The position numbers and the translations under genes were made by a program. The notes under the pieces were generated by a model, which saw nothing but the letters and a program-made list of their open reading frames with translations, had not been told where the DNA came from and searched no databases. Below, one piece after another: positions 5,423-47,069 of a DNA stretch of 64,000 bases (position 1 is the first letter of the stretch; each line of letters begins with the position of its first letter). The stretch is from an uncultured Verrucomicrobiota bacterium (GTDB lineage Bacteria; Verrucomicrobiota; Verrucomicrobiia; Opitutales; Opitutaceae), in NCBI GenBank assembly GCA_903898675.1, contig CAIUGM010000038.1:62001-126000 (forward strand), written 5' to 3'.

Positions 5423-6124
5423 TCAGAGGTAGTGACTCTGGGGGTGCAGCAGGTTGGCGACAAAACGCAGGAGGGGCGGAAAAACCGGACTGAAAAACCG
5501 GGCGGCCACGAGGACGCCCAGCAAGCGCAACCAGGGCGCCTGCAGGAAATCGGCGTAACGGGCCGCGGCGGCGGCGGGCAGCAGCAGGAGCGGGGCGTTG
5601 CTGCCGTCGAGCGGCGGCAGGGGCAGCAGGTTGAAGACGAACAACAGGAGGTTCAGCGAAAGCACGATGCTGAGTAAGGTGGCGGCGAGGTCAGGCCAGC
5701 CGGGGGCGGTTGCCACCACGAGCCGCGAGGCGTTGATGCTGTACGGGGCGCCAAACCAATGCCACTCCAGGCCGATGCGGATGAGCCAGGCGGAAGCGAG
5801 TACGAGGGCGAGGTTGGCCGCAGGCCCGGCGAGCGCCATGAGGGCCGCGTGACGGGGAAAGCGGCGGGCCCATTCACGATTGAAGGGCGCACTGGCCCAG
5901 CCGATCAGCCAGCCGCCGGCCAGCCATGACATCACCGGCATCAGGACCATCCCGAAGGGTTCACGGCGAATGTGCGGCCAGGGATTCAACGTGACCTGTC
6001 CACCACGCGCCGCGGTGTCATCGCCCAGCTTGAGGGCGGCCCAGGCGTGACTGGCCTCGTGCAGCACGGTGGAGAACAAAAAAACGGCGTACCATAACAG
6101 AGCGGACTCCCAGCCGGATTGCAT
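5423..6124 (-). CDS. M50-family zinc metalloprotease (site-2 protease type)
   Basis: 233 residues with several hydrophobic segments. HEASH at residues 22-26 is the HExxH zinc motif, lying inside the first membrane segment as in M50 proteases. FNLLPLPPLDGSN near residue 170 is the second motif supplying the third zinc ligand (Asp). ALAGPAANLALVLA matches the conserved glycine-proline segment. Such enzymes cleave within membranes, often releasing anti-sigma factors or clearing signal peptides; the substrate here is unknown. Unlike the second M50 gene in this window (34167-34958), the active site is intact. The DUF2167 gene follows four bases downstream. Confidence 0.9.
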   Translation of the reverse strand: MQSGWESALLWYAVFLFSTVLHEASHAWAALKLGDDTAARGGQVTLNPWPHIRREPFGMVLMPVMSWLAGGWLIGWASAPFNREWARRFPRHAALMALAGPAANLALVLASAWLIRIGLEWHWFGAPYSINASRLVVATAPGWPDLAATLLSIVLSLNLLLFVFNLLPLPPLDGSNAPLLLLPAAAAARYADFLQAPWLRLLGVLVAARFFSPVFPPLLRFVANLLHPQSHYL

Positions 6125-6255
6125 CGCGGGAAGCTAGGGACTGCGGGCAGGGGCTGACAGCTTAAACTGGCCGCGGTGACGGCCCGGTGCGGGCACGGAT
6201 GGCCGGACCTTACTTCGTACTAGCCGCCCGGGAAAACTTGAGCCATCTTCCGGCC

Positions 6256-32730: not shown

Positions 32731-34113
32731 TTAACGTTTCTTTGCCGCCGGCTTCTTGGCCTTGGCGAACGGCGTTTTGGTCGTGCTCACCGGCGCCGGT
32801 GCCCGCACGGCCAGGGCCTCGGTCACCACCGCCAGCATGTCGGTGGGGTGAGCCGCCTTGAGTTGCTCATAGAGCCGGTCGAACAGCTCCTCCAGATCCG
32901 CCGGCGCGGCCGCCCCGGCCTCGTTGCTCTGGCGTACTTCATCGGGCAGGTCCTTCGGCAGGATCGCGTCGCCCTGGGCGATCACTGCGCTGCGGTAGAT
33001 CATGTTCTCCAGTTCCCGCACGTTGCCCGGCCAGTTGTGCCGGCACAGGATCGCGAGGGCCTCGGGGGAAACCTTGCGCGCCTTGGTCTTCTTCGCCTTT
33101 GCCAGGCTCTGCAGGAAGAAATCCACGATCTGCGGCACATCCTCCACGCGCTCGCGCAACGGGGGCAAGCGCAGGCGCACCACGTTCAAGCGGTAGTACA
33201 GGTCCTCGCGGAATTCCTTGTCCTTCACCAGCGTCTCCAGGTTCTTGTTGGTCGCGGCCAGCACCCGGACATTCACCTTGATGGTTTCCGAACTGCCGAC
33301 GCGCTGGATCTCGCCCTCCTGCAGCACGCGGAGGATCTTGGTCTGTGTGGTCGGCGTCATGTCGCCGATCTCGTCCAGGAAAATGGTGCCACCGTCGCAA
33401 ACCTCGAACTTGCCCAGCCGCTGCGCCGTGGCGCCGGTAAAGGCGCCGCGCTCGTGGCCGAACAGTTCGCTCTCGATCAGGTTCTCGGGAATGGCCGAGC
33501 AATTGACCGCCACAAAGGGCCTGGCGTTGCGGTGACTGTGGCGGTGGATGCTGCGGGCGACCAGTTCCTTGCCGGTGCCGCTCTCGCCGGTGATCATGAC
33601 GGTGACATCGCTGGTGGCGACCTGGCCGATGACCTTGAAAACCTGCTGCATCGGGCCGGACGAGCCGACGATGCCCTCCTTGTGCTCCTCGGAATTGATC
33701 ACGGGCTGCACGCCGCCGGCCGAGCGGATGTCCGCCTGGGTGCGCAGGGCGTTCTCGACCAGGGCGAGCAGCTTGGGCGGATCGAAGGGCTTCACCACGT
33801 AGTCGAAGGCCCCGTATTTCATCGCCTCGATCGCGGTCTGGGCCGTGCCATAGGCCGTCATCAGGATCACCAGCTGCTTTGGATTGGCGGCGCGGATATG
33901 TTGCAGGGTCTCGAGCCCGCTGATGCCGGTCATGCGGTTGTCGAGCAGCACCACGTCGGGCGGCTGGCGCTTGACGGCCACCACGCCCTCCTCGCCGCTG
34001 GGCGCCTCCACCACCTTGTAACGCTGGGAGGAAAGCACCCGGTTCAACGAATAGCGCACCTCCGCATCATCATCGATGACAAGAATGGTGGGAACAGCAG
34101 CGGGCTCGGGCAT
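32731..34113 (-). CDS. Sigma-54-dependent response regulator lacking a recognisable HTH
   Basis: 460 residues. The receiver domain (residues 8-125) carries VIDDDAE, the phosphorylated Asp in [10 protein letters not shown] and VKPFDPPKL. The AAA+ domain has Walker A (GESGTGKE), the sigma-54 contact loop GAFTGA and [18 protein letters not shown]. After [12 protein letters not shown] the usual Fis-type helix-turn-helix is absent. Instead there is a helical stretch and a Lys/Ala tail ([12 protein letters not shown]). It could activate sigma-54 polymerase without specific DNA binding, or bind DNA by its basic tail. The start at 34113 is preferred to 34182. No kinase gene is adjacent. Confidence 0.92.
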
Positions 34114-34166: not shown

Positions 34167-34958
34167 ATGCTTGGGTGGTCAATTAACTTGTTTCGGGTGT
34201 TCGGTATCCAGCTCGCGGTGCACGTCTTCTTCGTGGCGCTGCTGGCTTACTACGGCTATGTGGGCTGGACGGAGGGCGGCCTGCCCGGTCTGGTCTGGTG
34301 GGTCGGATTGATCCTGCTTTTCTTCGTCTGTTTCATACTCCACTAGCTCGGTCATTCGCTGACGGCGCGGCGTTACGGCATCAAGGTGCCGCGCATCCTC
34401 CTCCTGCCGATCGGCGGCATGGCGGAATTCGACCGCATCCCGCGTGAGCCGGTTCAGGAGCTGCTGATCACCATCGCCGGACCGGCCGTGAATTTCACGA
34501 TCGCGGCCGGCCTCCTGCCTTTCGCGTGGAGCGGCTTGCTGAGCGCAGACGATTTGCCCGCCTACTCGCCGGGCGCCCTGGTCGACCAGCTCTGTGCCTG
34601 GAACTTTATCATGGGCTGCTTCAATCTTCTGCCGGTTTTCCCCATGGACGGTGGCCGCATTTTCCGGGCCCTGCTGGCGTTCAAGCTGCCTTATCTTCGC
34701 GCCACCTGGTGGGCGGTCACCGTCGGCAAGATTCTGGCGCTCGGCTTCGCGGTCACGGCCTTTTATCTGCAATGGCAGCTGACGGCCGTGCTGTTCCTGT
34801 TTATTTTCTGGGCGGGAGACAGTGAGTACAAGCAGTTGCTCCGCCGCGAACAGGAAGCCCTGTACTGGGCGGAAATGGCGCGCCGGATCGTACCCACCGC
34901 GCCACCACCGGACGGTGATCAGCCTCCCCTGCTCCCTTCTTATCACGGGCCAAACTGA
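34167..34958 (+). pseudogene. M50-family metalloprotease interrupted by an amber codon at the catalytic Glu
   Basis: The open frame from ATG 34167 continues in one frame for 263 codons apart from TAG at 34344-34346 (codon 60). It reads ...FVCFILH, then stop, then LGHSLTARRYGIKVPR. With Glu in place of the stop this would be the HELGH zinc motif. The second zinc motif (FNLLPVFPMDGGR), the glycine-proline segment (TIAGPAVNF) and the C-terminal membrane segments are intact. A single GAG to TAG change explains the interruption. The product would be a 59-residue fragment unless the stop is read through, so the gene is treated as disrupted. No recent decay is seen elsewhere in it. Confidence 0.85.
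34344..34346 (+). other. In-frame amber stop at the HExxH Glu position
   Basis: TAG sits between the codons for His59 and Leu61-Gly62-His63, exactly where the catalytic Glu of HExxH belongs. GAG differs by one base. TAG is a normal stop in this genome, for example at the ends of the genes at 537, 1035, 15110 and 31942. Confidence 0.9.
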
Positions 34959-35106
34959 CCGGCAGTTACAATCCCGGGACTGCGTCGGAGGAATATAGGC
35001 TCGCGGTTTGGGCTCCGGGACCCAGATCATGGCTTCAGTATCTGTCTCAGCCAGCCCGGGACTTTACCTGGCCCCCCGCCTGATCGAGTCTTACCCCACC
35101 CCAACC

Positions 35107-44609: not shown

Positions 44610-45368
44610 TCAATATCCCGCGGTAAACTCGGGCGGCAGCGGGGCGCTGGCCTTGAAGACGCAGGCCTTGCCGGCGAAATCGTAGGTGAAGCTGGTTTCC
44701 AGCGAATGCAGGAAAAGCCGCTTGCTCTTCGTCACCTTGGCGAACGAGCGGTTGAGCCCGAAGTCGCCGTAGGTCTGGTCGCCGATGATCGGCAGGTGCC
44801 GCTTGGCGCACTGCACGCGCAACTGGTGGCTGCGGCCGGTGCGCGGCTCGAGCCGGATCAGTGCGGTGGAAAATGACTTCTGCGTGTGCTTCACCAGCTG
44901 GAAGCGCGTCTCGGCCGGCACATTGCCGATCGTCGACGTGCGGATCTGGCCGCGGCCCTTCTTGACCGAGATGAGGTCGCGCCAGAATTCCTGGGGCTGT
45001 TGCGGTTTGCCGAAGACCAGGGCCTGGTAGATTTTCTGGACCTGCTTCTTCGCGTAATGCTCGCGGACCGCCTTCGCCACCTTCTCGTTCGAGGCGGTGA
45101 GAATGACCCCGGACGTCGCCGAATCCAGCCGGTTGAGCAACCAGAGCTGCCGCGCGCCGCCGTCGGCCGCCTTCCAGGTGAAGCACTGGACCTCCTTGTC
45201 GTAGTGGCAGGTCAACAGCGCGCGCGGTTCATCCTCGGAACCGTTCGGGTGCGACAGCACACCGGCGGGCTTGTCGAAGGCGGCCAGGCCATTCGCGTCG
45301 CGGTTGAGCAGGCGCACCCCGTGGCCCAGCGGCAACGTCTCCCAGAAATCACCGGGTAGATTGCTCAC
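44610..45368 (-). CDS. RluA-family 23S/tRNA pseudouridine synthase
   Basis: 252 residues. LNRLDSATSGVIL holds the catalytic Asp in the family HRLDxxTSG motif, with Asn in place of His. LEPRTGRSHQLRVQ and GDQTYGD are the other family motifs. The N-terminal S4-like domain is missing, so this is a short RluA member of uncertain target. The start is GTG at 45368 (VSNLPGDFW), which overlaps the preceding gene's stop by four bases. The longer frame from 45434 would overlap that gene substantially. Confidence 0.9.
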   Translation of the reverse strand: MSNLPGDFWETLPLGHGVRLLNRDANGLAAFDKPAGVLSHPNGSEDEPRALLTCHYDKEVQCFTWKAADGGARQLWLLNRLDSATSGVILTASNEKVAKAVREHYAKKQVQKIYQALVFGKPQQPQEFWRDLISVKKGRGQIRTSTIGNVPAETRFQLVKHTQKSFSTALIRLEPRTGRSHQLRVQCAKRHLPIIGDQTYGDFGLNRSFAKVTKSKRLFLHSLETSFTYDFAGKACVFKASAPLPPEFTAGY

Positions 45369-46471
45369 TGGTAATAAAAGGACAACGTGATCGTCTGCTC
45401 CTCGCCGAGGACGGAAATCATCTGCTCGGTCCACTTGCGGTAAGGCTGCGGATCAGTAATGGCGCTCTCGCAGGACAACACGCCTTGTTTCCCACTGTCG
45501 GAGTCCTCCACCTTGATGATCTCCGTCTCGCCCTTGGAGTTGATCTTGAAGGTGACGACGACATGCGACCCGCGCGGCGGGGAAACGTGACTGTCCTCCA
45601 GGATGCGGTACCACGACACCTGGATGATCTCGAGCATCTCGTGCATGTACTCGCCGTACTCGCTCCACCGGGCATCCATGCCGAGGACGCCGACGTTCTG
45701 CACGCCGGTGACGCGGTTGGTCAGGATGGTTGAGCGCGGGGCCGTCAGTCGAGGCCGCGCCTTGGGCTGCGCCTTGCTGGTCTGGTTCACGGCCACGAGG
45801 CCACCGGTGGGATCCTTCGCGTCGTGCGCCCCCTCGACCTCCTGGTCGGCGTGGGTGGTGGGAGACTTGGACTTGGAAATATTGGAGGCGATCCCGTCGT
45901 CGGACTTGCCCTCGTTCTTTTCCGTGCCGGCCAGGGGAGTCTGCTCGGCGCGGGCCTTCAGTTCTTCCTGGGTTTGCTTGCTGTCGTCCTTGACCACCTG
46001 CGGGGAAGCTGCGGCGCCCTGCTGCGGCTTCGCGAGGTTGCCGGTGACGATCGAGGCGTCATTCTTGATCTGGTCCTGCGCATTGGTGATGCTCGGACGG
46101 TTTTCGGGATCTTTTTCCTTGGCCGGGTCGGGCTGGGCGGACTGCTGGTTGCGGTTGCTAAAATTCGGGGTCTTGTCGGGTGTATTCTCCGGTGCATCCG
46201 GGTTGGTGTCGACGTAACGGAAGGGATTCTGCTTCGGCGGTTCCGGCATCGGATCCAGCTGGAAATCGAAGGTCTTCCCCTTGTTGGTCTTGACCGCGAT
46301 CCCGCGGTGCGAGCCGTTGAATTTGTTCAGGCCGAACTGGGGGGAAAGCCAGATCAGCAGCAGGTGGAACAGGATCGTGCAGGCGATGCCAATGGCAATG
46401 GACCGGTGCACCGGATCTTCATCGCGCAGGGCCTTTGCCTTCTTCCTCGGCTCTTGGGTTTGGGTTACCAC
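45365..46471 (-). CDS. TonB-like protein with disordered linker
   Basis: 368 residues. One membrane segment lies at about residues 25-44 (IAIGIACTILFHLLLIWLS). Residues 90-260 are rich in Gln, Asn, Lys, Asp and Pro and likely disordered. The C-terminal part (about 275-368) contains MLEIIQVSWYRILEDSHVSP and VTFKINSKGETEIIKVEDSD, which resembles TonB/TolA C-terminal domains. It is therefore probably a periplasm-spanning transducer without an adjacent ExbB/ExbD pair; the exb-like operon is 8 kb away. The family match is moderate. Confidence 0.7.
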   Translation of the reverse strand: MVTQTQEPRKKAKALRDEDPVHRSIAIGIACTILFHLLLIWLSPQFGLNKFNGSHRGIAVKTNKGKTFDFQLDPMPEPPKQNPFRYVDTNPDAPENTPDKTPNFSNRNQQSAQPDPAKEKDPENRPSITNAQDQIKNDASIVTGNLAKPQQGAAASPQVVKDDSKQTQEELKARAEQTPLAGTEKNEGKSDDGIASNISKSKSPTTHADQEVEGAHDAKDPTGGLVAVNQTSKAQPKARPRLTAPRSTILTNRVTGVQNVGVLGMDARWSEYGEYMHEMLEIIQVSWYRILEDSHVSPPRGSHVVVTFKINSKGETEIIKVEDSDSGKQGVLSCESAITDPQPYRKWTEQMISVLGEEQTITLSFYYQ

Positions 46472-46481
46472 TGGTTTGAAA

Positions 46482-47069
46482 TCAACGCGTCTGACCCGCT
46501 TGAGTCAAAAGTTGTTTCATTTCTTCCAGCGGTAAACCCACAATATTTGTCAGGGAGCCGGTAAAGCCCGCCAGAATGAGCCCGGCCTGCTCCTGAATGG
46601 CGTAGCCGCCGGCCTTGTCCAAGGTGTGCACCCGGCTGAGGTAAAGCTCGATCGTGGCCTCGTCGAACGCCTTCAAGGTCACCTCGCTGGCCACGCCCTG
46701 CTCGAGGCGCAGGCCGTCCCGAAGGCGGCGAACCGCGAGGCCCGTGAACACGGTGTGGGTCCGTCCGCTGAGCATCCGGAGCATTGCCCGGGCCTCGGCG
46801 CCGTCGCGCGGCTTGTTCAAGACGGTCTGATTGATGAAAACGGTCGTGTCCGCCCCGATCACGGTGGCGTCCGGGTGCCGGGCGGCCACCCAGTCGGCCT
46901 TGAGGGCGGCGTTGTGCCGGACCATTTCCCGCGGATCGGCGTCGGGTGCCTCATATTCGGTGACCTCGGCCGGGATGATATCGAAAGGCACCCCCAGCTG
47001 GGCGAGCAGCTCCTGGCGCCGCGGCGAGGCGGAGGCGAGAATCAGGCGGGAAATCACCGGAACGGTCAT
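46482..47069 (-). CDS. maf: Maf-family nucleotide pyrophosphatase
   Basis: 195 residues. LILASASPRRQELLAQLG is the N-terminal nucleotide-binding signature. VIGADTTVFINQTVLNKPRD holds the metal-binding residues, and MLRMLSGRTHTVFTGLAV is the next conserved motif. Maf enzymes hydrolyse non-canonical or pyrimidine nucleotides to monophosphates and are linked to septum formation. The start at 47069 (MTVPVISRLI) is chosen over 47141. The TonB-like gene begins 10 bases beyond its stop codon on the same strand. Confidence 0.95.
   Translation of the reverse strand: MTVPVISRLILASASPRRQELLAQLGVPFDIIPAEVTEYEAPDADPREMVRHNAALKADWVAARHPDATVIGADTTVFINQTVLNKPRDGAEARAMLRMLSGRTHTVFTGLAVRRLRDGLRLEQGVASEVTLKAFDEATIELYLSRVHTLDKAGGYAIQEQAGLILAGFTGSLTNIVGLPLEEMKQLLTQAGQTR

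Follow-up and report, generated by a model that had tools for sequence, protein, structure and literature searches.

An in-frame TAG at the catalytic glutamate codon of a site-2 protease gene in a Lacunisphaera-like genome most likely reflects recent gene loss or a draft base error

An M50 (site-2) protease gene in the draft genome of a Lacunisphaera-like bacterium carries a TAG triplet at the codon for the glutamate of its HExxH motif, and this raises the question of whether the stop marks a selected loss of activity, a changed genetic code, the ordinary loss of a gene or an erroneous base. We analyzed the window, the whole 64,000-nucleotide stretch of DNA in which the gene lies, together with further parts of the same genome and of its relatives. 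The most likely answer is ordinary recent gene loss or an erroneous base in the draft genome, not a new genetic code.

The M50 frame and its relatives

The frame (Table 1) runs from an ATG at 34167 to a TGA at 34958, with 59 codons upstream of the TAG and 203 downstream, and contains no second internal stop. When the stop is entered as X, the translation matches the Pfam family Peptidase_M50 at 73.9 bits (gathering cut-off 27.2); a search against NCBIfam gave no match. It also aligns with residues 3-221 of the site-2 protease MJ0392 (PDB ID: 3b4r; E 1.2e-37) with both motif regions in register, but differs from that type of enzyme in that a stop takes the place of the HExxH Glu codon, leaving 59 residues by the standard code. 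The local sequence is ILH-stop-LGHSL, with H59 and L61-G62-H63 as direct neighbors, and thus the HExxH with its catalytic Glu that would be expected of an active enzyme is absent. The second signature, xxMDGGR, is present as FPMDGGR, the Asp of which we take to be a zinc-binding residue in M50 proteases. The sequence-only reading had placed the TAG exactly at the HExxH Glu of a 263-codon frame intact on both sides, and the frame, the Pfam match and the Glu of the relatives all bear this out. The locus in the genome assembly (G000:C38:96167) is identical to the window, necessarily so as the assembly is the same.

Table 1. Coordinates of the M50 locus and of other interrupted genes (window positions unless a locus or contig is named)
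Feature	Coordinates	Strand	Remarks
M50 (site-2 protease) gene	34167..34958	+	263 codons, interrupted at codon 60; frame, Pfam PF02163, 3b4r, orthologues
TAG	34344..34346	+	Codon 60, at the site of the HExxH Glu
H-stop-L-G-H	34341..34355	+	Zinc/catalytic motif
FPMDGGR	34638..34658	+	Second M50 motif, intact, invariant across the alignment
ATA	34335..34337	+	Ile codon (rare), common to five sister orthologues
NtrC-type response regulator	32731..34113	-	Head to head with the M50 gene; presumed start ATG at 34113
DUF1302 gene	L182:14149-16215 (G000:C38:54149-56215)	-	Two in-frame TAGs; frame otherwise intact, selected
NtrC-type response regulator	L228 (G000:C14:79405-80805)		TAG in receiver domain
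Glycosidase-like gene	L230 (G000:C40:22681-24618)	-	TAG at invariant Glu of VTENNS

Two further features of the sequence around the stop were observed. Codon 57, three codons upstream of HExxH, is ATA, the rarest Ile codon in the genes of the window (1.1% of Ile), and ATA is also used by the sister orthologues that have Ile there (L003, L004, L005, L007 and L008). An open frame of 283 codons on the opposite strand (34179-35030) overlaps the M50 gene; frames of this kind are common in such GC-rich DNA, and this one is probably not a gene.

The intact state of this gene can be read from its relatives, the named ones among which belong to Lacunisphaera and other Opitutaceae. Codon 60 encodes Glu in all 13 same-genus orthologues (6 GAG, 7 GAA) and in all of the best 80 of 264 wider relatives (42 GAG, 38 GAA), a set that overlaps the first, and none of these 80 has a stop in the matched piece. 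The gene thus shows one mark of a nonsense pseudogene, an in-frame stop where intact orthologues exist. The 13 close orthologues come from the other members of a set of 21 same-genus genomes that includes this one; 12 are 59-69% identical in the alignment and the thirteenth (L015) is a partial copy. The head-to-head layout with the upstream response regulator is kept in 12 of the 13, the remaining one (G012) lying at a contig end. Of the 15 genomes that are at least 90% complete, four (G008, G014, G019 and G020) have no close orthologue, and the M50 gene therefore looks dispensable within the genus. It is single-copy in its own genome: no near copy was found there, the next protein match having an E of 9e-4, and other M50 proteins are present. 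One M50-like paralogue, with its HEASH intact, lies in the window itself at 5423-6133 (minus strand), about 28 kb from the M50 gene.

The position of the stop and the decoding of TAG

The coincidence of the stop with a catalytic residue invites a functional interpretation. Besides codon 60, 55 codons of the gene lie one substitution from a stop, giving a chance of about 1/56 that a random nonsense mutation falls on codon 60, which is unusual for one gene but weak for a feature picked from a whole scan. The catalytic role of the codon is in any case irrelevant to the effect, because a stop truncates the protein wherever it is placed, here to 59 residues. We therefore do not share the view that the exact site is telling, and a selected loss of activity, one of the possibilities raised by the sequence-only reading, has no positive evidence in its favor: as nonsense removes the protein at catalytic and non-catalytic residues alike, selection against activity explains nothing about this site. 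The placement of the TAG on the catalytic Glu is probably a coincidence, and its meaningful look deceptive. Such a stop is better taken as a caution, since it says nothing about catalysis when the protein is truncated regardless.

The genome was also analyzed for signs that TAG is read as sense. RF1 is present (prfA on contig C15, 455 bits, above the cut-off), and none of the 40 tRNAs among the matches listed is a CUA tRNA. A pattern for a CUA anticodon loop with a T arm, the T-arm part of which recognizes 39 of the 40 known tRNAs, likewise revealed no CUA tRNA; it matched four places, which are parts of tRNA-Glu(TTC), tRNA-Glu(CTC) and tRNA-Arg(TCT) and one place without a tRNA. TAG terminates 11 of the 59 likely window genes of at least 100 codons and, in a larger sample from the same genome, 148 of 956 likely genes (about 15%) versus 105 of 530 in relatives, a slightly lower share here (P about 0.03, hand calculation). 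Neither of the two signs of TAG reassignment (a CUA tRNA; RF1 lost or TAG non-terminating) was thus found. Eight other same-frame junctions in the window were examined with Pfam, and as six have separate domains on each side and two a domain that starts only past the junction, we read all eight as gene boundaries. On the basis of RF1, the tRNAs and TAG usage, termination is the default reading of TAG, and a changed code was rejected as the main reading. The original judgment that such a change is unlikely holds, and the suppressor tRNA-CUA whose presence it had proposed to check was not found by either the tRNA listing or the pattern.

Further interrupted genes in the same genome

The M50 stop turned out to be one of a small set that lay beyond the view of the sequence-only reading, with at least five more genes carrying isolated in-frame stops. 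In 1.34 Mb of the genome (38%), we detected six interrupted genes, five of them with TAGs (six in all) and one with a TAA. These numbers come from a codon-composition scan of 1,340,949 bases of this genome and 720,000 bases of relatives. Here the scan gave 40 same-frame junctions. Eight of these lack an early start codon, and their stops are TAG in six cases, TAA in one and TGA in one; the TGA (C40:77653) was rejected because it separates an ABC transporter from another family. In the relatives it gave 22 junctions, two of which lack an early start; one is the boundary between LepA and signal peptidase and the other a possible interruption, so that the 720 kb contain no confirmed interrupted gene. 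The difference between six genes in 1.34 Mb and none confirmed in 0.72 Mb is not significant (P about 0.08, hand calculation).

Our first homology-based stop screens were swamped by the spurious frames of GC-rich DNA, and the results rest on stricter screens. A synteny screen against four relatives left nine rows, namely the M50 stop, two stops in a DUF1302 gene and six (window 14021, 28465, 33533, 46329, 46356 and 49406) that were dismissed on inspection as non-coding or antisense frames, each supported by one relative except 33533, which had three. When support from at least three relatives was demanded, three TAGs and one TGA were left in 100,949 bases of this genome's DNA (68,264 covered), and no supported stop in 320,000 bases of four relatives (249,559 covered). 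The TGA, at window 45453 and supported by three relatives, was not counted, as it falls within the 3' end of a gene (45365-46504) that overlaps in another frame. No frameshifts were seen in the syntenic comparison of contig C38.

The DUF1302 protein (545 bits), encoded on the same contig as the M50 gene, is 66% identical to a relative over 699 positions; its first stop replaces a Gln found in all four relatives and its second a position with Trp, Lys, Ala and Lys. Four more genes complete the set: a response regulator on C14 and, on C40, a hybrid histidine kinase, a glycosidase and a PEP-CTERM repeat protein; the TAA case is L231. The C14 regulator is up to 94% identical to its relatives, and Glu occupies the TAG site in all 11 fetched loci. 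Beyond residue 323 its own C-terminal part is lost and the frame continues into an FtsX/ADOP permease part, a join that could be a rearrangement or a misassembly. In the glycosidase the TAG site is Glu in nine of nine loci, presumably the nucleophile; the gene was found in 8 of 21 genomes, this one included, and is dispensable in the genus. The TAG site of the histidine kinase is Gln in six of nine relatives. Stops flagged in the relatives' copies of five of these genes were terminal or preceded the start, with the exception of one at residue 311, in the sigma-54 domain of the C14 regulator's counterpart in G014 (L249), a different species. This is one of 11 relatives' copies, from outside the scanned control, and indicates that such lesions also occur elsewhere in the genus.

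When the interrupted genes are considered together, the case for TAG as a sense codon (Glu or Gln), at least in part, can be stated more fully. Six of the seven interrupting stops are TAG; relatives have mainly Glu or Gln at five of the six TAG sites, two of which are a catalytic or likely catalytic Glu (M50 and the glycosidase); the interrupted frames remain selected; and the lower terminal share of TAG points in the same direction. However, random nonsense arising from the codons of this genome is expected to give TAG in a fraction of 0.66, and 0.43-0.51 of the one-step paths to TAG start from Glu or Gln codons, so that neither the TAG majority nor the Glu/Gln sites are surprising alone (P about 0.25 for at least six of seven and about 0.09 for at least five of six, hand calculations). 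As RF1 is present, the CUA tRNA is missing from both searches and some 15% of likely genes end in TAG, sense decoding is the least probable of the explanations that we weighed. A softer version, in which UAG is tolerated inside genes (the M50 protease, the glycosidase at its likely nucleophile, the response regulator, the histidine kinase and the DUF1302 protein) and, at sites where Glu or Gln is conserved, is decoded as one of these residues, perhaps inefficiently, yet ends about 15% of genes and has no recognizable CUA tRNA, is only marginally less improbable.

Age of the stop and competing explanations

The age of the M50 stop was assessed with a branch model of 20 sequences and 260 codons in which codon 60 was masked; the alignment excluded L086 and L091 (motif not found) and L093 (the same sequence as L014). 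Omega is 0.157 on the gene's own branch versus 0.109 elsewhere (2dlnL 1.27), and seven other tips under the same test range from 0.052 to 0.207; relaxed selection on the gene is thus not significant. The profile for the neutral share of the branch extends from 0 to about 0.22, the point estimate lying near 0.05, and no decay was seen other than the stop, which is either young or not in the organism at all. Private changes at columns conserved at 80% or more number four before the stop and none after it; at 90% columns all three precede it (P 0.02), for which we offer no explanation. The own-branch tests cover three more genes, the DUF1302 gene (omega 0.085 in a comparison with four relatives, no more than 0.07 of the branch being neutral), the C14 regulator (0.003) and the glycosidase (0.059), each near or under its own background. 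As all four are under purifying selection on their own branch, their stops are young or are base errors.

Local and mutational signatures were considered and set aside. An apparent cluster of G:C>T:A changes at codons 56, 57 and 60 loses codon 57, where ATA is common to the five sisters; this class is not in general excess, as it accounts for 61 of 553 private changes here and for 0.12-0.17 of them in four relatives (21 gene groups); and local gene conversion was rejected, as the 23-base stretch around the TAG has no other copy in the genome at up to three mismatches.

The sequence-only reading rightly named an inactivating mutation and an assembly error, and these remain the two leading readings. 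We suggest, with moderate confidence, that in one Lacunisphaera-like genome a recent nonsense mutation has turned a dispensable, single-copy gene for an M50 site-2 protease into a null allele. With the TAG at codon 60, translation would end after 59 residues with the zinc site incomplete, and no protease would be made. Both the reality of the base in the organism and the lack of a full-length M50 protein are inferred. The reading is supported by the dispensability of the gene, the six interrupted genes, the second lesion in two of these six (the two TAGs of the DUF1302 gene; the TAG and the FtsX/ADOP replacement in the C14 regulator), which favors real inactivation, the interrupted G014 copy of that regulator, the young lesion, and termination as the default. 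Counting against it are the absence of decay in the M50 gene apart from the stop, the absence of a confirmed interruption in the relatives, and the location of five of the six genes on C38 and C40, which make up 241 of the 1,341 kb scanned, as contig quality might cause.

This clustering is also what consensus or assembly errors in the 40-contig draft might produce, in which case the organism's M50 gene is ordinary and intact. Purifying selection on all four tested genes accords with such an error, the lack of frameshifts in C38 fits errors of the substitution type, and internal stops are documented to arise from assembly errors (Cooley and Wright 2024, PMC11017572). Two of the six genes, on the other hand, have second lesions, an unlikely outcome if errors were scattered at a rate near one per 190 kb; the private changes show no excess of one class, although a low error rate would escape that test; and the dispensability of the M50 gene and the glycosidase counts toward real nonsense. 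We consider an error rather unlikely, if still a serious contender.

UAG can be read through by near-cognate Gln, Tyr or Lys tRNAs, and a real stop might allow a little full-length protein at lowered expression. The residue inserted would not be Glu at the catalytic site, however, and so the product should be inactive, and a suppressor tRNA was found neither among the matches listed (at least 40 tRNAs) nor by pattern. Purifying selection does continue on both sides of the M50 stop, but a young null allele predicts the same pattern. Although in-frame stops under purifying selection are reported to be widespread in bacteria (Belinky et al. 2021, PMC7918605), we regard readthrough of this stop as quite improbable, and readthrough and recoding jointly as no better than a small chance.

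The M50 locus alone matters little; the set of interest is the six interrupted genes in 38% of the genome, which bears on young gene loss versus consensus error and on the small chance of a sense UAG. Literature searches on the genus Lacunisphaera, on reassigned stop codons, on site-2 proteases that lack activity, on in-frame stops in metagenome assemblies and on MJ0392 found no report of this case among the papers listed, and a term search of the accessible text of a genetic-code screen (PMC8629427) found no mention of Verrucomicrobia. Both leading readings are ordinary, and isolated internal stops are common in draft genomes. The stops under purifying selection described by Belinky et al. 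2021 resemble the present one in being single and short-lived in a frame that is otherwise selected, but are common to at least two species, whereas here one genome is affected and no sharing was seen. The assembly-made stops treated by Cooley and Wright 2024 are likewise isolated internal stops in draft assemblies, as are those found here, mostly on two contigs; the difference is that two of the genes described here carry second lesions.
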